From: Rhabdophis nuchalis
Lineage: Eukaryota > Chordata > Lepidosauria > Squamata > Natricidae
Direction of reading: 5' to 3'
DNA: 64,000 nt
Assembly (NCBI GenBank): GCA_039707465.1
Contig: CM077652.1
Location: 37,353,118-37,417,117, forward strand
The translations under genes were made by a program, and so were the position numbers. Each line of letters starts with the position of its first letter. Positions within the stretch are counted from its first letter, which is position 1. Shown piece by piece: positions 1,229 to 33,361 of the stretch. The notes below the pieces were generated by a model that made no database searches, had not been told where the DNA came from, and was given only the letters and a program-made list of their open reading frames with translations.

Positions 1229-14650
<13,422 letters not shown>

Positions 14651-22607: not shown

Positions 22608-23030
22608 TCACTCGCCCTTGGTGCCCACTCCAGGAGCTTCTTCCTCGTCGTCGCTCTCTAGCTCCAGCAGATCCACAGAGAGCACACGGAGCGAGTCGTA
22701 CTTGGGGGGCGGAGTGCCCGGCTCAGAGCCAGCCCCTGGAGCAACCGGGTCCCCGTCCCCCGGCTCCTCAGCCACTGCCGCCGCCTTCTTCTCCTCCTCC
22801 CCGCAGAAGCCCAGGTTGGTGTAGGCCTCCACTTTCTGGCAAACGGACGGGAGGGCATCTGGGGGCCTGGGGGCCGGCTTCCACTTCAGCCCCTTGCCCC
22901 AGGAGATCAGCTTCAGCACGGTGATCCAGACGAAGTCGATCAGGATCTCCCCGAACTCGATGAGGCACAAGACGGAGCCCCCCATCCAGAAGCCGAACTG
23001 ACCACCCAGGCTGGAGAGGAGCCAGACAAT
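22608..23030 (-). other. SCNN1B: SCNN1B last coding exon: pore, TM2 and PY motif
   Basis: Encodes 140 residues, starting [20 protein letters not shown]. The pre-TM2/TM2 region holds the selectivity residues GGS. The cytosolic tail carries PPPKYDSL (PPPxYxxL), the binding site of NEDD4-type ligases and an endocytic signal whose loss causes Liddle syndrome in humans. The end is strongly acidic ([10 protein letters not shown]). The stop is TGA at 22610-22608. Confidence 0.93.
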
Positions 23031-26000
23031 CTGCCGTGGAGAGCGAGGCCGGGGTGAGGGCAGGCCGGCTCAGGCGTCACCGGAGCAGAGATGCAGGGAT
23101 CGGCCTCGCGGCTTGGCCAAACTCTCCTGGCCAGAGGGGGGCTGGAGCTCTCGTGGTCGCACACGAGGCTAACATGGAGGTGAGGATCACTCACCAAATC
23201 CAGCTCCTGAAGCCAGATCCAGACTTCAGGTACTGAAACTGGACTCTCTCCTCGCTTGCAAGGAGCTTTGAGCGGTCGCCTGCCGTTTCCTCGTGGCTTG
23301 CCAAGCAACCCCGTCACCCCAGAGACTCCCGTCAGCCTCTCCCAGTTTTCCCAGATGCTGACATTGTTCCTGCCACATGCAAAGCAGGGCTTGCTGCTAA
23401 GCATGAGCAGAGGACACACCCTCCTCCCACACGGCATTCCACATCCGGGGAGGCACCTGCCATTGCGTTGCCCATCCCTGCTTAGCCATGGACTCGGCCT
23501 CCTCTGTGGGGGACGAGCCTTCTCAGGGGCCTCTGGGGAAGGAGGAAGGGGGCCGAGGACCAGGCCTCTTGCCATCTCCAAGGGGCCACTTACCGTTGTT
23601 GCTGCAGACTCTGAGATGGTGCGGTAGTTGTACTCCTGGAAGTAGATGCTGAGCTTGATGATTCCATTTCTGTGACGGGAAAATAAGGACCATTGAGGAT
23701 TCCTGCAAGTGTGAGGCGAGACCTCCCTCCTCTTTCTCCACACAAGAGTTTGAAGGTGCCTCAAAGGACCTGAGCGCAAGATCTGCTCCAGCATCCCACA
23801 CGGGGGACCCTCCGACCTCCAGCCGGCCCCTCGGCAAGGAGCAGGCTACTTCATGCATGGACTCCATTGCTCCTTTGGCTGAGAGCTCATACAATCAGGA
23901 TCCTCCTGACATCCTAGTCTGAGCCTCCTTCCCTGTGCTTCTGCTTCCATCACGCAAGGCAATAGGGAGGAGGTCCACTCCCTCCTGCCTTGGGGTTCTG
24001 AAGAACAGTGTCCCATCTTGCCCTCAGGATGGGCCAGACCCACAGAGCCTGATCAAGACACCCGGAGTGAACCCATTGCTTCCCATCATCTGCACTCTGT
24101 GATCCTAGTGATGCAAACAGTATTTGCCCTTCTAGCACCCATGGATGGTGGTGGCTGAGAATGACAGCCTGAGGCTTTCGTGCGGATTATCGGCTGTCTC
24201 CCATCCGATACTCGCCTTTCCTTTTTCCTAAACAGACACAGAACCTCACGTGATGTCCCCATCCAGTCAGTCTTGACCATAGAGATCAGGGGGCCCCAAC
24301 CCTGTTGGCAACTGGGCCGTGCAAGCGATGGGCGAGCACTCATGTGCGGAGCTCCATTTATACGCCCCACCCTCAGTGCCGGGCCAGGCCACCAAGGGGG
24401 GAAGGTTGGGGACCGCTGACATTGATACGAGGCTGATCCGTCCCTGACCTTCAGCCCCTTCAGGGCTTTCAATTCCCAAGTCTTCTCCTTCAACGCTTAC
24501 TGGGCTCTCTCAGCTGGTCTTCTGCACATTTTTAACGTGTCTCCTCAGCTCCCTTGGTCCCTTGATCAAAGCACTGAATGGCCAAGAGCCCTCTGGCCCT
24601 CCAGACGGCCGTCCAGACCGGAGGACTTGGGATGGGACAATTCAGCCAAGTAGGAGTAGATCAACAGCCTTGTTGTCTAGTCTCCATTTCATTCCTTTTC
24701 GAAGGAGGCCATCCTCAGTTCCTCTACTGAAGCCCCGCCCTGAGGTCCGGGGGGCCTAGGTCTGTGCCTGGTCTCCTCCTCTCTCACTGCAGGGGGCTGA
24801 CTCACATCCAGCCGGCAGGTTGAAAGGTCAGGCTGGGCTGCTGAAGTCTCAGAAGCCAAATGGGGGGGGGAGGGCTCTGGTGGGCTTTCCTCTGCCCCTG
24901 CCAGGCACGCCCACCCTCAAAGCTCAGAGGGGACAGGCACAGCCGGGGCAACGGGCTGGAAGAAACCAGTGGAACTTCACAGGGAGAGGTGCAGCGATTC
25001 GAACCAGGAGGCGAGAGCTGTGACAAAACGGGCTTGAGGAAAGTTTGCGGGAAGAGGGAGGCTTGGACAAAGGCATGCAGAAGAAGGAAAAGGGGCTTGG
25101 TTACTGCAGGGACTGAGAAGAGCTGTAGGATTGGGGCCCCCTGTGCAGAGACACAAAGGAGCAGGCAGTTGGGATGGGCAAGGAAGCAGAACCGGCTAGG
25201 CCCACTCCTCCCGGCTGACCCACAAGGGGGCCCAGGACAGAAGCCCCTCTCCGCCTCCCAAGGGACCTTTCCCCTCTCTTTCTACATTCAGGGCCGGCCG
25301 AGCGAGTGTGGGGACTCAGGGCCACTCGGTCCACTTCTCTCCCTCACGGTCCAGCCTCTCCCCACCCCCGGCCCTCAGGTAGGGAGGCTGCCCCTCCACC
25401 CAGGAGCTGCGACCGAGGTTTCCTGCGGCATTCGATGGGGGAAGCACAGATGTACCCACCTGTCCAGGGTGACTTTGGTTGAGGTGTCTCTTTCGTAAGA
25501 TAAAATATGGAAAATCCAGTCCTAGCAAGAGGGAAGCCAAGGTCACAAGCAGGACACGGCAGGTGAGAGATGCTCTCACGGGGACCAAGCAGGGGGACTT
25601 TTCTGCTTAAATACCCTCTTTAGAACGATTGAACAGGGTCCCCGAAGGAGGAGCCCCCACCAAGGGAAGTGTCAAATGGCTGCCCAGCCTCCCTTGTCCG
25701 GCCCTTGGAGAGGCAGGTGAGGAGCCGGCCACAGGGACCCTGTTTCCCTGAAAAGAAGACCTCCCTGGATAATAAGCCCACTTGGGCTTTTGAGCGCATG
25801 CGCTAAAATAAGCCCTCCCCCCAAAATAAGCTCTTGCATCGCAGCAGCAGCCATGAGGTGACCACGCTCACCACCTCCTGCATCCCCAAAATAATAAGAC
25901 CTCTCTGAAAATAAGGCCAAGCGCTTATTTCGGGGCTCAAAAGAAAATAAGACCCTGTCTTATTTTGGGGGAAACACAGTAGGCCTCACCTCTGAGGCTT

Positions 26001-29000
26001 CGGAGGGCCAGTCAGCCATGGAGATGGTCATCTTGTACTGGGTGTTGCTGTGGGAAAAGACGAAAGGTCAGGCTCTTCCCCTGGATCCCCTCAGTCCCCC
26101 CCCGGCTCTGCTTGACCGCTCGTCCACTCTTACTTGCAGGTCTCCTTGCAAGATTGGATGCACATCTGCCGTTGCTCCTGGCTCATGCGCAGGATGGAGT
26201 AACAGTAGGCTGTGGGGAGGGAAAGACCGTCTTGGCACAAGGCTGTTAATCTGAGCTTCCATGTTACCTTTAATTCTGGGGGAGAAACGCCTCGGAGCCC
26301 CGTTTCCTCTGAGGATTAAGGGGCGCTTGTCTCTTTCTGTTGGGAGCAGCACAGCTGGCCGTCTAGGCAGGGGCTTCGGCTGCAATTAGCTGCGCTTTCA
26401 GATTCCCCCCTCCCCCCCCACCAGTCCAGGAACCTCCGGGGGGCTCTGCAGCTCCCTTGCCTTGTGGGGTCTCTACAGCTGGGGGGCAGCTCCGGAGTCC
26501 CCCCTGTGGGGCCGTTCCTTCCATTTCCTCACCCCAGTCGGGATAATCCTCGTTGTTGCAGTAACGGGCTCCTTCGGGCAGCGGGTAGGAATAGTGGGCA
26601 CACCGGCAGATCTTCACCATCTTGGCTTGGACGCAGGAGCGCAGGCAGGCCTGGGAGAGGACGGGGTCCCGCTGGTCATGTGCTCCCCAAGAGCAGACCC
26701 CAGCCCCAGCCCCTGGGCACTACCACCTCCCCCTTGCCAGTTCTTAGCCAAATTCCACCAAGAGGCCCCCACAGAGGGGCCACAAGGGCTCCTGAGAATG
26801 GGACCACCGCAGCCTCCCACCCCCCGGCTGGCACCCAGAGGGGCTTCTGGCCTGGGGGAGGGGCAGCAGCACTGCTCACCTGGATGGAGTACATGGTTTT
26901 GTACTGGCTTCGGAAGGGGGCCACCTTGCTGCCAGGGTGGGTGCAGTTGGCACAGGCGCCCAGCTCCTTGGCCTGCCAAGAGGAAACACCAGAGAGCCCA
27001 TCTTAGTGACTCTCCCTAGAGCTGGAGAACAGCCCTTTCCAACTGGGCTCCCCCCACCCCTCCCCTCCCAGGGCTCTTCCCATGGGGCAGGGTAGAGGAG
27101 GGGAGCCCGGAGACGAAAGACCCTCTCTTCCCCAAACGCCTTGGCCCTCCTTGCTCTGCCCAGCTGCAAAGGGCGGCTCCTTCCAGAGCTCTGAGCTGGC
27201 CTCTTGCAGGAATCAGGCCAAGGGCCACCGCACGTGGCCAACTGCCCCCTCCCCCATTTTCAAGAGAGACTGGCTAGAAAAGGGCCCCACCCGGGGGGGG
27301 GGGGGGGGAGGGAGGCTGCCAGTGCAAAGTGTTCCCGCATGGCAGCTCCTTCTAAGGAAAGGCACAAAGGGTACCTGAAAGAAAGGAGGGGCCTGTGCAA
27401 CCAGAGGCTTATCTGGAGCCACCCAGCAACCCGGAAAAAAGGGGGCCACCCAGAGACCAGGAAGTGCCCTTGTTCCCTCTCAAGGACAAGGCGGCCCTGA
27501 GGACTTTGGAGACTTCCTCCGCAGTTTCGGGAGGGGACTGGGGCAGATTCAGAAACCGGGGCCCCTTTTGCCCACTTCTTCCCCATTTTGGGTGGGGGTC
27601 CTCTCCCCCCTTCAGACCCAGGGCAGCTCTGTTCCTTCTGGGCAGCCCCACAGCTCCCCTCCCTTGCCCAGCAGGCTCAAGAGGGCTCAGCTTTCAAGAG
27701 GCTGCAGCTGCTCTGCACCTGGCCGGGGGGCGTGTGCGTGTGTGTGAGTCCCCCAGGTGGGTAAAGGGCTCTGCCCACGGAGCAGGAGGGTGGGGCTGGG
27801 GCAAAGCGAGCAGAGCAGGGAGAGAAGGCCTGGCCCTCTAAGGGGAGCCCAAAATCCCCCCCCCCAACAGAATCACACCCAGAGGCACCCTGCAGTCCCC
27901 ACGCCTTGCTTGGCCTGGCAGAGGCCTCGTAGCAGACAGAGGGCCGGTCACTGAAGGCAGCCAGGCCAGGAGGAGAGCCCCTTCCCCCAGTTGCCCATTG
28001 ACGGGAAAAGGGCGTTAAGGGCCCCGGTGCCCCCCCTGCAAGGCCACAGGACTCTGGCCACAAAGACCAGGCAAGGGGGCTGACAGCCAGGGACCCTCCC
28101 TTCACCCACCCCCAGCGCTCCTCCTCCGGCCGTACTGCAGAGTCCCCCAGTGACATGAAAGGGGGGGCCTTGCAGAAAGCCAGGGAGCCCAACTGGAACC
28201 CCCCACCACCTGGGAAGCAGTGTAGTCCTCGTAGAGGTTCTTCACGGGAACGTCGGATCCGTTGATGGTGCAGTCACTGTAGGGGGAGCCCATCCGCTCC
28301 AGTTCATCCTGGGAAGGAAGGCCCGGAGAGGCGGCAATTGTTGCTTCCGGTATCCGGGCACGGATGGTGTGATTCCCCCCCCCCCAAACTGGGCTCCCTG
28401 TCCCCGTTCACATCTCTGGGGAGTGGAAGTCACGCAGGGGTCGCAGTCCTCTTGGGAACCCCTGCAAGAAGGGGAAAGCAACACACACACGTCCCGATGC
28501 AGGAGACCCCCGGGTTGCCTTCCCCCTCCTGGCTGGGCCCCTGTTCCCTCCAGGGGGTCAGCTCAGAGGGGCCCACCTACCACCAGGACGCCGATGGAGG
28601 TCTCGGTCCCTGACATGGCGTAGATGCCCTGGTCCTTCAGGAAAGGGAAGCTGCCCTGCTCGTGCAGCATCAGCCGGGCGCCAGCCGTGGTGGTGAGGAA
28701 GGGGATGTAGTCCTTCTGGCTGATGTCCAGGATGAGCTTCAGCCCTGCAGAGGCAGAGCCCCACAGGCGTCAGCTGAGGGTCCCGGGAGGGGAAGGGGCC
28801 CAGCCTGTCTTCATTCTCTTTGTCGGGGGTCTCGTCTTGGCAGCCAGGCCCACTCAGCCACACCCTGGAGAAGGGCAGGCCACAAGCGGGGTCTCTGAGC
28901 TTGCCACGGGGTCCTTCTGTGGGTCTCCCTGCTCCCGTTTGCTTTGGGATTGGTGTGCCCAGTCTTTGGGAGGGGGCTTGGCATCCACACCCACACAAAC

Positions 29001-32000
29001 TCGGCCTGGAAGAGCAATGCCCGCCTAAGGACGGTTTCCCCCCTGTCTCCAGACCCAGAAGTGGCACTGCAGGACCCCGAGGCCCTTTCTCCCTCCCGTG
29101 GCACCCAGTCTACTTTGAAGTGGGGAGGGGCGTGGGGTCCCCGCCAGCTCTGCAGAGCCCTCCCCCACCTCCAGCTGGAGCCCAGCCAGGCCTTGAGAGA
29201 CCCCGCCCCCCCAGGTACCCACCAAACTCTGCCCCCGGATTGGAGGAGACGAGGGGCTGCTTCTCCACCCCCCAGTTGAAGACGTAGCAGTTGCCGTGGT
29301 CCGGGTGGTAGAGGTGGGTGAAGTTTCTGCGGAAGCCAAGCAGCGAAGAGATTATTCTCACGGGGGGGTCGGGAGGGTGTCCTGGCACCCCTCAGAGACT
29401 GGCCCTCCCCAACCCTTGAGAGGGGGGGGGCAGAAAGTCCTCTTTCTGGCGCTGCCCTGGGGGTCTTCCAGGGAAACCCTCCCCCAAACCCTGAGCTGCC
29501 CTGAGAAGTCAGACAATTCAGACAAGGCAAGTATCTCCGCCTGATGTGGCTTCCCAGGGAAGGTCATTCACGCACTGCCCACGTTCCCACAACCCAAGAG
29601 GCCTAAACTACGAACAGGAAGGTGCCCCAAGGCAGCCAGCCAGCCCCTCTCTTGCCGGAGGTTCCTCTTGAAAGAAGCTGCCACCTCCCCCCCACCCCCC
29701 TGGGAGCCACAGGCGCCCGGCCTTTGGAGGAGGCCCTGAGCCATGAAAGGCCCTGGAGCAGCCAGCTGTTAACTGACCCTGTGAGGCCTCAGGGCTCCTT
29801 GACCAGGGCCTGGGTTTGGCACCCAGAAGAAAGGGGGCCTCTCTTTAACAGATTAACAGAGTTGGAAGGGACCTTGCAGATCATCTAGTCCAACCCCCTG
29901 CCCAGGCAGGAGACCTTACATGTGCCTCTACTTAGGATCGAACTCACAACCTCCTGCTTGTGAGGCAAGAGATCTACCTCTAGGCCACAGCAGCTTCCGT
30001 TTCCCTGCCACTGCCCGGCCTGCCCCACAGGGCTGGGGCTATGATGAGAAGGGCAGGGAGCGTAGAACTCCAGGAAATCCCCTGGTGAAAGGAACGGACT
30101 CTCCTATTGCCCAATGCTTTTTTTCCAGAAGCAAAGGGGCCCAGGTGGGCCTAAGCAAAAGAGCCTTTTTGGCCAGAAACCTTCAAGCAGCTGATGAGGC
30201 TCCGGGCATCTCCGGAAGGCCAAGGGGGCAACGCTGTCCTGGGCCCTGGGGTGACTTAGGGGGGATGTGTAGTCCAGGGCGGCAGCCATTGGGGATCAGC
30301 GAACTATGGCCGGAGGGCAAAGCAAGACAAGGGACTTGTGGCCGATGGCTGCCTGGTGAGACAATGGAGGGAATTTGGCTTTCAACAGAAAAACCCAACG
30401 GTTTGGTGAAGAGGGTCGGCTGCCTCCTTTGCAACAGGAGTTAAAATGATGGATTGATCAATTGACCGATGGATTGATCGCTCCTGGCAAAGCCATGGCC
30501 GGAAGGACAGCCGGCTGCCCTGTGAGCCCAGTCGGGGGACAAGTGGGGTGCAGCCAAGGCCCAGAGAGGTTGTGCAGGGGACGGCCAGGAGGCGGCCAGG
30601 GAAGGGCCAGGGGCAGCGGGACCCCCGGTGGCCTTCGCACCAGAGAAGCACGGCCGGCTCAGCCTCGCTGGGGCTTCATCAGGTCCACCTCAGCCGAACC
30701 TTCACAGGGAACCTGCCGAGGGATGGGTGACTGCTGCCCCCAAAGGTTTCTGGCTCCCCAAAGCACAGGCCTCTTGGCCGGGACCATCCATGGGGGTGAG
30801 CACCCCAAGCCTCGTCTGGCCCTTCTCTGCCTCCTTGGTTTTGGCTTTAAGCTTCTTCTCCGGATCTGGGACGGAAGCTTTTGCAAAGTCTTATTTCAGT
30901 GCGCAGGATCTTCTTTCTCCCAGGGAAATCCACCCTCCGTGGCCGGACTGGGCTGGCAAGGGAATTAAAGCAGCAGGAAGTGGAGGAAGGGCAGCCACGG
31001 TGCTCTTAGCTCAAAGGCCGAGAAGGCAGCACCCTCGTCCCTCCTTGGACATCCCCCCCCCTACCCAGACTGGGGGCAGAGCTTGCGTCACCAAAGGGAG
31101 CGTCTCTGCAGGCCACACACACACACACATAGACACACATTGTGGCTTGTGGTTGTCACCACCCTTGGTGGTGCCAAGGGCCTTCACTTCCTGCTGCATC
31201 TTTCACTCCACCCTCAGTTCAGAGTCTGCAGATGGGCAGCCACGAACTCGCTGGTGGAGTCCTTTATGGGAAGCTCGGGCACTAGATCTCTGCCTTTGCC
31301 TTGGCTTAACCCAGGCTGACCTCTATATCCTGCAGGCCGCAGCAGGGGGGTTCCCAGACAGAGCCTGAAGAGCCGTGGAAGGCTCTGCAGTTAAAGGAGG
31401 TCAAAGGAGGTCCAATGCCCAGGGAATTCCCCTGTGCACGCACCTGTGGTTGCAAGGCTCAGCTCCGTACAGGCAGGCCAAGATCATGTCCTCTGCCTGG
31501 TAGCCCATCTCGATCCGTTGGCTCAGGGGCACTTTGGACAGGATGCTGGTAGACTGCAGGACGTACCACTCGGCCACCGCCTGGGCGGCGCTGGTGAACT
31601 TCCGGTAGAAGCAGTGGGGGGTGAGGTGTGTGCACTGAGGAGGCAAACGGGAGGGAAGGGAGGAGGCGTTGGGAAGGGAAGGCAGGCAGCTGTGAGGAGG
31701 CCTTGGCCTTTTCCGGTGCAGAACACCTTGCTGGTGGGCTGGCCCAGGAATAAAGAGCTCTTGCACAGCTGAGCAAGTGACCTGATGGGCTTCCTAAACG
31801 GATCTACCATTTGGCCCAGTTACCAGCAGAACTGCCAGAGAAATGTCTAGCTGGATGGAATGGGACAATTCATTGTGCCCACCTCACCATGGCCATTTTG
31901 ACACAGCCAACTTGCCATGGGTAACTCAAGGAAATAATCTGCCACTGGTATCCACCACAGTTTCTTTGACATAATTTACATTTTTGAGTTATGCCACATG

Positions 32001-33361
32001 GAATTTTCTGAGTCGAGCTGTCCCACAGCAAGTTGTCCACAGTGAGATGGCCCTGGTGAGTTGGCCATTGCAAGATGGCCATGATGAAATGTTGAGTTGG
32101 TTGCGGTGAATTGTCCTAGACCCCTAGCCAGAAGCTCAGAGCTGTCGGGACCACCCTGTGGGGAAGGTCTGCAGGTGCACCATCTGGCGGGGCTGCCGGG
32201 GGGAGGGGCATTGGAGCAGGGGATGAGTTCCTCCTCTGGGAGGGGAGCATGGGGGAAATCCTCCTCCTCCCCTGCTTACCAGTTTCAGAGCCAGCTTGTA
32301 CCTCCTGGCTTCCGGATTGCCAAAAGAGGAGACGTTGTGGTGCCCTCCAAGAGCAAGAGAGCCGTTGCCAAGGATGTCATGGATGACTGGATGAGCTGCG
32401 TCACTCTCGTCAATCAAGACCAGGGGCATCTGGTTCCAGAGCTGCAAGTTGAGCTTCTCGCTTAGATTTGCTGCAGGGGTGGCCGATGCATTTTCCTGAA
32501 GAGGCTGCAGGATCCTTTCAAGGGCTGCCTCAATCAGCTCATCCAAATCCTTCAGGAAGGGCTTCACCTTAGAATACCTGAGAGATGAGCCAAAGAAAGT
32601 TCTCACCAGGTTTGGTCATCCCAAGTGGAAAAGGCAGATGGGATCCTGTGCAACCAAACAATAACTGGGCACTGGGCCAGGTAGGGAGCCAAAGCAAGGG
32701 CCATGTCAAAATCCTAAGATGCCATCCTTCTTGCTTCCTTGCTTCTCTAGCATCTGCAAGGTAACCTGTCAGCATCTCCTGCCCAATACCTTCTCTGCTA
32801 GGTCAAGGTCAATCAAGAGCCTGGTTCTTACCATGGGTACCAACTGCCCTGCCATTTGGGCCAAGCCAAGCTTTTACAGAAGGAAGTGAGGAGAGCAGCC
32901 TCTGAGCGTTCATGTCCTCAGTCAAAATCTCTGGCTTGGCCTTTATGGAATCCCATCAAATTTTATCAGGAATATTAGGTAGAGTTGATGAATGCCAGGT
33001 TGTCCAGAGACACCCTCCCACCCACCCCCAATACCAGTCTGGAAACTCACCGGAAAGGACTTGCATTGCAGATGGTAACAGCGGGGAAGGTCATGGTCTT
33101 GAAGCCGATGGCCAGAGAGGCTGTAACGTTGTAGGACAGGTAGGTGTTGATGAGGATGCCCCACTGCCAGAACACCAGCGAAGCGAACAGTAGAGTCAGG
33201 AAGAACCAGATCAGCTTCTTCTTCGGACCCTCACAAATGATGCGCTTGGGCCCATGGGTGTTGGTGTTGTCGCAGTACCAGACCAGCAGCTCCTGGTAGG
33301 TGTATCCAGGGCCCTTCTGGAGGCGATGGAGAGCCTTCACAAAGTACTTCTTCAGAGTCAT
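22608..33361 (-). CDS. SCNN1B: SCNN1B, epithelial sodium channel beta subunit (all coding exons)
   Basis: Beta subunit of ENaC, the amiloride-sensitive apical Na+ channel of salt-absorbing epithelia. Coding exons on the minus strand: 33361-33051, 32577-32280, 31634-31444, 29326-29223, 28744-28581, 28308-28210, 26972-26880, 26650-26533, 26209-26134, 26047-25990, 25521-25460, 23669-23594, 23030-22608. All phases join into 690 residues if every exon is used (human about 640). The ATG at 33361 gives MTLKKYF, matching the family start; an acceptor lies 11 bases upstream, so the true exon begins in 5' UTR. Visible parts: gating His36-Gly37, TM1 about 50-70, cysteine-rich extracellular domain, selectivity segment MGGS at 566-569 in TM2, PY motif PPPKYDSL at 657-664, acidic tail. 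From memory, human has 12 coding exons; 13 are seen here (see the exon pair at 28308/26972). Confidence 0.95.
24287..24418. mobile_element. Short hAT-like remnant
   Basis: Ends CAGGGGGCCCCAACC and GGTTGGGGACCGCTG form a terminal inverted repeat typical of a widespread hAT-type family. No clean target duplication was seen. In an SCNN1B intron. Confidence 0.4.
25738..25981. mobile_element. TIR-bearing non-autonomous DNA transposon
   Basis: Ends CCCTGTTTCCCTGAAAA and (reversed) ACTGTGTTTCCCCCAAAA, with repeated AAAATAAG blocks facing each other across a GC-rich middle. It lies just downstream of the SCNN1B exon at 25990-26047, so it sits close to a splice donor. Confidence 0.5.
26880..26972 (-). 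other. SCNN1B: SCNN1B exon 8: extra 31-codon exon
   Basis: A 93-base phase 0-0 exon between TTGGCAG and CAG|GTGAGC, with strong splice signals. It encodes [16 protein letters not shown] then [15 protein letters not shown]. The final YKTMYSIQ matches the conserved lead-in to ACLRSC in the next exon; the rest adds two cysteines (CANC) and a sequon (NCT). A second in-frame acceptor, AAGCCAG|TAC, would shorten it to 24 bases (26880-26903). It may be a duplicate of the preceding exon or the far half of a split exon. Confidence 0.75.
28210..28308 (-). other. SCNN1B: SCNN1B exon 7: first of an unusual exon pair
   Basis: A 99-base phase 0-0 exon encoding 33 residues, [11 protein letters not shown]...[11 protein letters not shown]. 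It has the same length and position as the SCNN1G exon at 63722-63820 (ends NLYNKSYSLQ). The front half is a strong match to beta and gamma ENaC, but the end reads TASQ rather than the usual YSIQ/YSLQ. The donor is CAG|GTGGTG, weaker than the others in the gene. Confidence 0.8.
29849..29994 (-). mobile_element. tRNA-derived SINE with CR1-type 3' tail
   Basis: On the minus strand the head has an A box (TGGCCTAGAGGTAGA, 29987-29973), an anticodon-arm-like TTGCCTCACAAG resembling tRNA-Val(CAC), and a B box AGTTCGATCC (29944-29935). It continues into a CR1-like 3' end (GGGGGTTGGACTAGATGATC). The tail implies mobilisation by CR1. It lies in an SCNN1B intron. Confidence 0.65.
31864..32118. repeat. 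TIR element with GGACAATTCA ends
   Basis: Left GGACAATTCATTGTG and right (reversed) GGACAATTCACCGCAACC form inverted ends; the interior repeats CCATGGCCA/TGGCCAACT-like blocks. A related copy lies at 38070-38304. In an SCNN1B intron. Confidence 0.45.
32280..32577 (-). other. SCNN1B: SCNN1B ectodomain exon (exon 3, finger region)
   Basis: Encodes 99 residues from [14 protein letters not shown] to LALKL. It has several N-glycosylation sequons (NAS, NLS, NGS, NVS). The segment just before the exon end, which in human beta carries a CxxxxC pair (as I recall it), is cysteine-free here and reads [13 protein letters not shown]. The donor is CTG|GTAAGC, phase 0, and the next exon opens with Cys. Confidence 0.85.

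Follow-up and report, generated by a model that had tools for sequence, protein, structure and literature searches.

An extra exon in SCNN1B of squamates, probably a tandem copy of exon 7, would lengthen the loop ahead of thumb helix alpha4 in the ENaC beta subunit

The SCNN1 genes have 12 coding exons, numbered 2-13, and the part of PMC8662647 that deals with their structure reports no alternative splicing in this core. A departure from the layout is described there for SCNN1D of hystricognath rodents, in which exons 11 and 12 are fused (PMC8662647), and the COE/EBF genes carry a tandem-duplicated exon that is obligatorily included in vertebrates (PMC2394523). Obligatory inclusion of a tandem exon and a clade-specific change of an SCNN1 layout are thus each already known, and SCNN1B of squamates has likenesses to both. 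As in COE/EBF, we would have an in-frame tandem exon duplication that was fixed in one clade with both copies included; the COE/EBF case, however, concerns a helix of a transcription factor and dates from early in vertebrates, whereas that of SCNN1B concerns an extracellular loop of a channel, would date from the squamate stem and involves a complementary decay of the copies. As in SCNN1D of the hystricognaths, a single clade has altered an otherwise constant set of 12 exons, and the change affects a flexible part of the extracellular protein; there, however, two exons of the delta subunit gene were fused and took up intron DNA, while in beta one exon and one intron have been added. Mutually exclusive tandem duplicated exons (PMC9741552) have the same kind of origin as we propose for the two exons here called 7a and 7b, but they substitute for each other, whereas 7a and 7b both appear to be included. 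Compared by sequence with the canonical amniote ENaC beta (PDB 6BQN and 6WTH), the squamate subunit is the same protein with all other exons collinear, but it has about 28 extra residues at human Y377-T379, has lost the sequon of the exon tail and has gained a CxxC pair. We found no report of this exon in the open-access literature that was searched, a scope outside which most subscription papers fall, and a term search in the main text of two papers on ENaC evolution (PMC11331422, PMC8791634) gave no mention of squamates, snakes or an insertion.

The window analysed here is a stretch of 64,000 nucleotides from the snake Rhabdophis nuchalis, and all positions refer to it unless stated otherwise. 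On its reverse strand SCNN1B forms a model of 13 coding exons (22608..33361) that is open for 690 codons, with introns that start in GT and end in AG. Coding exons 1-5 lie at 33361-33051, 32577-32280, 31634-31444, 29326-29223 and 28744-28581, the last of these being the upstream neighbour of the pair (exon 6), which ends in phase 0 with ...SIGVLV. Exon 7a (coding exon 6, 28308-28210) has 99 nt or 33 codons and exon 7b (coding exon 7, 26972-26880) has 93 nt or 31 codons; both are of phase 0-0 with AG/GT borders, and the intron between them (26973..28209, reverse strand) is 1,237 bp long, with the donor CAG/gtggtg and the acceptor ggcag/GCC. Coding exons 8-13 follow at 26650-26533, 26209-26134, 26047-25990, 25521-25460, 23669-23594 and 23030-22608, beginning with exon 8, which starts in phase 0 with ACLRSC and encodes thumb helix alpha4. 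The gene thus holds the 12 canonical coding exons in their order and a single extra one, 7b, between exons 7 and 8. That it is SCNN1B, encoding the ENaC beta subunit, is not in doubt in spite of the departure from 12 coding exons: the best PDB match of its protein is the human ENaC beta chains (E 7.9e-282), the identity to the beta subunit of Ahaetulla is 95%, and with the 7a/7b region cut out it is 96% identical to Ahaetulla prasina over 616 columns and is placed inside the snakes, closest to Ahaetulla of the species listed.

Exon 7a retains the front of the ancestral exon and lacks its YSIQ end, while 7b retains the ancestral tail YxTxYSIQ, lacks the front, and holds a CxxC (CANC) and an NCT sequon. 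No other internal exon of SCNN1B begins and ends in phase 0 as these two do, and any choice between them keeps the frame. A preliminary description of this DNA had given the same positions, lengths, phases and motifs, had placed a CT pair 21 and 22 residues from the ends of the two exons, and had counted 13 coding exons against an expected 12; all of this agrees with our analysis and with the vertebrate norm as given in the gene structure part of PMC8662647. It had also pointed to SCNN1G, which lies head to tail with SCNN1B and upstream of it, and whose exon 7 (63820-63722, reverse strand) indeed has 99 nt and phase 0-0 and ends in SYSLQ. This exon is single and serves both as a control within the window and as a possible donor; no 7b-like match was found between it and the next exon of SCNN1G within the window. 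An alpha/delta-type ENaC gene elsewhere in the same genome (positions 1251-1617, reverse strand, of locus L003, which lies on contig C2) likewise has a single exon 7, with the next exon about 150 bp further on.

The distribution of the insert was followed in 143 different proteins, brought together from three protein searches (the best 120 of 323, 120 of 152 and 120 of 352 matches), in which it was scored as the number of residues between NLY and CLRSC. The proteins were clustered at 90% identity, which could hide one-exon or minor isoforms, and outside the window the border of 7a and 7b is drawn from proteins and not from DNA. Among the non-squamate proteins listed the spacing is 11 residues in 116 of 117, turtles, crocodilians and birds included, the remaining one being a fused shark model with a spacing of 8. 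The tuatara (P0125) has a single short form, NLYEEYNTSYSMQ followed directly by ACLHSC, and in human beta, which has no insert, the region runs uninterrupted through the PDB chains (...NFYSDYNTTYSIQACLRSC). Tuatara, turtles, crocodilians, birds and human all have the one ancestral exon here. The 26 squamate proteins listed, P0028 and P0109 being counted among them by their place in the tree, fall into 22 with both exons and a spacing of 33-53, three with neither exon, one with a single fused exon, and none with only one complete copy. Those with the insert reach from geckos to snakes and comprise five snakes, Elgaria, Varanus, Sceloporus, Anolis, Pogona, Phrynocephalus, Salvator, Zootoca, Rhineura, Hemicordylus, Lerista, two sequences that group with skinks, and four geckos, and the extra exon is therefore not a peculiarity of this genome but squamate-wide among the proteins listed. 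In P0109, P0121 and P0028, all of the skink group, a Q stands seven residues past the final Tyr of NLYxxY, as in the ancestral exon, and 7a may be longer in skinks.

The four squamate proteins without the complete pair are of two kinds. In Naja (P0007), Pseudonaja (P0006) and isoform X2 of Tiliqua (P0116) exon 6 is joined directly to exon 8, in frame, which may be either a gap in the model or an isoform that skips the pair. Heteronotia binoei (P0143) has one exon in which the front of 7a is joined to a tail of the 7b type, NLYEDYRTAYSIQ; it is nested with high tree support among geckos that have the insert, and where the ancestral tail has N it shares the R of squamates. For these two reasons it is likelier to reflect a secondary loss or a bridged gene model than to be a relic of the ancestral state. 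Since the insert is present in geckos as well as in other squamates and is absent in tuatara, the origin of 7b is placed on the squamate stem, although the base of the tree, in which the geckos join the outgroups at only 87/75 under a midpoint root, is too weak to date the event.

The exons differ strongly in how well they are conserved. Mean pairwise identity among 22 squamates is 34% in the body of 7b (7b without its tail), against 70% in 7a, 76% in the tail and 71% in exon 8. The CxxC is nevertheless found in 21 of the 22 insert-bearing squamates listed; the exception, P0028, has no cysteine, and a single cysteine occurs in none of the 22. That the cysteines are present both or not at all fits a pair that is bonded to itself, even if a single loss would amount to one event, and the two may form a disulfide with each other. 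The preliminary description had counted the NCT as an added glycosylation site. The motif is there, and N-C-S/T is found in the 7b body of 17 of the 22, but there is no net gain, for the sequon just before YSIQ, which all of 116 non-squamates listed have, is missing in every one of the 22 insert-bearing squamates; if the NCT carries a glycan, as is probable, the glycan would have been moved rather than added. P0028, which groups with skinks, is without both 7b cysteines and without the sequon.

When the window protein is aligned with the PDB beta chains (6BQN, 6WTH) the alignment splits in two and query residues 387-408 are left unmatched. The approximately 28 extra residues sit between human Y377 and T379. 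PMC6197857, which also describes the thumb-palm-wrist junction, locates here the stretch that connects palm strand beta9 with alpha4. In human ENaC the response to the activator S3969 at the beta/gamma interface is shaped by R388 and F391 in alpha4 (PMC11065748). These residues are about 10 positions downstream of the insert site. The insert would lie next to the site in the beta/gamma thumb at which S3969 acts. A structure prediction for Ahaetulla P0001 from a 42-row alignment, with a mean pLDDT of 46.8, is too poor to place the loop: residues 380-417 are below 50, and a helix at 419-435 reaches about 76-84.

The preliminary description had left two origins open, a duplicated exon or an ancestral exon broken by an insertion that became an intron. 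Had foreign DNA entered exon 7 between Y and NTSYSIQ, with its middle turned into intron and its ends remaining coding, one ancestral exon would have its front in 7a and its tail in 7b, as is seen, and the poor conservation of the 7b body would be expected. The same goes for the 11 of 23 insert-bearing sequences in which a profile built from 15 insert-free proteins picks up again no earlier than the tail. A search of the 64-kb window with a turtle-type exon 7 does reach 7b (E 0.028), but in part through the tail, which both origins share. We therefore took the 7b body without the tail and permuted its columns jointly across species. When 21 of the 23 sequences were used (all but Python P0005 and P0028), the score was reached by 0 of 3000 permutations against tuatara exon 7 and by 4 of 3000 against turtle; with a hand-picked set of 13 lineages by 0 of 3000 against each; with the CxNC block kept whole by 0 of 3000 against tuatara in both sequence sets; and in a later test with all 23 sequences by 0 and 1 of 2000. 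The exon 7 stretch is also the best of all 28-residue windows in the tuatara protein (337 versus 268), the same profile re-uses exon 7 positions in the other 12 of the 23 sequences, and a Tyr stands on both sides of the 7b interior in 17 of 22 species. Taken together the permutations, the window ranking and the profile favour a copied ENaC exon over foreign DNA, and a foreign insertion with an interior unrelated to the host exon, the interior being in fact exon-7-like and set almost as far from the tail as in exon 7, is disfavoured to the point of being very improbable. The body of 7b supports the duplicate named in the preliminary description, and the neighbouring exons have two of the features by which tandem duplicated exons are recognised, a likeness beyond chance and symmetric phases, both 0-0; as to a third, a source in the adjacent exon of the same gene, beta and gamma exon 7 both fit. 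The exon 7 of the neighbouring SCNN1G could have given beta the exon of a paralogue. Scored against gamma exon 7, the 7b body gives 626 for this snake and 580 for human, whereas beta outgroups give 490-515 (498 and 490 among the values) and human alpha 452. Gamma is also ahead for the entire exon, tail included (825 against 728 and 779 for beta), and the permutation z is 8.8 for gamma against 5.6 and 6.0 for beta. Much of this gap is due to one residue, however, since masking the N before the second Cys (13 lineages) brings the bodies nearly level, at 329 for gamma and 317 and 306 for beta, and the alpha/delta-type exon of the same genome also reads CTEDG, which shows that the site is labile. 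The tail alone favours beta (356-388 versus 294), and a local copy takes fewer steps. We consider a gamma donor unlikely and a duplication within beta, the simplest history, the more probable source, while the higher full-exon score of gamma has lowered our confidence to the level at which we call the whole reading, a tandem duplication of SCNN1B exon 7 on the squamate stem with co-spliced copies, a divided job and a longer beta9-alpha4 loop, probable.

How the exons are used can be weighed along the same lines. The preliminary description had thought them possibly mutually exclusive, and one could also imagine a regulated second isoform that skips the pair; any choice of exons is in frame, the models of Naja, Pseudonaja and Tiliqua X2 omit both, and the 7a donor agrees with the consensus in only 6 of 9 positions. 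Three other SCNN1B donors also have 6 of 9, so that nothing about regulated splicing follows from the weak donor. Mutual exclusion we reject, as very unlikely, on the 22 of 26 listed squamate proteins with both exons and none with one complete copy, and on what each exon lacks. Both exons are present, moreover, in P0028 (695 residues) and P0109 (683 residues), open reading frames whose contigs have 2,551 and 2,513 bases; such contigs of 2.5 kb are too short for an unspliced gene, the coding region here spanning 10.8 kb, and are presumably spliced. Alternative use as a whole we hold to be very unlikely, pair skipping less clearly so than mutual exclusion, and inclusion of both exons in most mRNA would be the rule. 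Profile scores of the window isoforms (both 1199.3, 7a alone 1195.7, 7b alone 1143.4, neither 1104.1) cannot separate both exons from 7a alone, because a profile without the insert cannot reward it. A search of the snake's own genome (1,917,733,297 bases in 348 contigs, 1.92 Gb) with the joined 7a+7b peptide gave three places, beta 7a, beta 7b and the alpha/delta-type exon, and among them no processed copy that shows the 7a-7b junction. As for function, the loop connects palm and thumb close to the beta/gamma interface, so that an effect on gating or maturation is likely; it would tune one of these rather than create a new activity. Nearly as likely is a spacer that is tolerated, almost neutral and of no consequence for gating. 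Such a spacer would fit the 34% identity of the 7b body, the variable spacing of 33-53, the apparent loss in Heteronotia, and P0028, which does without cysteines and sequon; that the insert is kept in 22 of 26 listed proteins across the squamates, and the CxxC in 21 of 22, speaks against it, and we rate its chances as appreciable but somewhat below even. Much bolder would be to join everything into a gating element peculiar to squamates. At the base of the beta/gamma thumb a loop closed by a disulfide and bearing a glycan would set Na+ self-inhibition or open probability anew; it would be made from a gamma exon 7 copied into beta and removable by in-frame skipping of the pair, as in the models of Tiliqua X2, Naja and Pseudonaja, to give a second form of the channel. 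Such a combination is in our opinion very unlikely.

With a tandem copy of the beta exon as the probable origin, we hypothesize the following history. Among the internal exons of SCNN1B, exon 7 and its copy alone start and finish in phase 0, which allowed exon 7 to be copied without a frameshift. On the squamate stem it would have been duplicated in tandem, and the mRNA would then have come to include the two copies side by side. Exon 7a would then have retained the front, the PYS.C segment at the thumb base, and lost the YSIQ end, while 7b would have retained the YSIQ end that leads into alpha4 and let its own front turn into a fast-evolving spacer with a C-x-x-C pair and, in most species, an N-C-T/S sequon. 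The outcome would be a beta9-alpha4 loop longer by about 28 residues, probably pinned by a small disulfide, with the glycan probably moved away from alpha4. If this is right, it is a clean case of two exon copies sharing out the job of one exon, in which a whole vertebrate order departs from the shared 12-exon SCNN1 layout, in a loop adjoining alpha4. Squamates with the insert, the tuatara without it and a gecko with an apparent loss would also make up a natural experiment on the role of the loop in gating.

Two elements were noted by eye in the gene. One, at 29870-30010 on the reverse strand in SCNN1B intron 4, we take to be a tRNA-derived SINE-like element of the squamate type. The other is a MITE-like element of about 250 bp with inverted ends, which lies at 25735-25985 on the reverse strand, just after SCNN1B exon 10.
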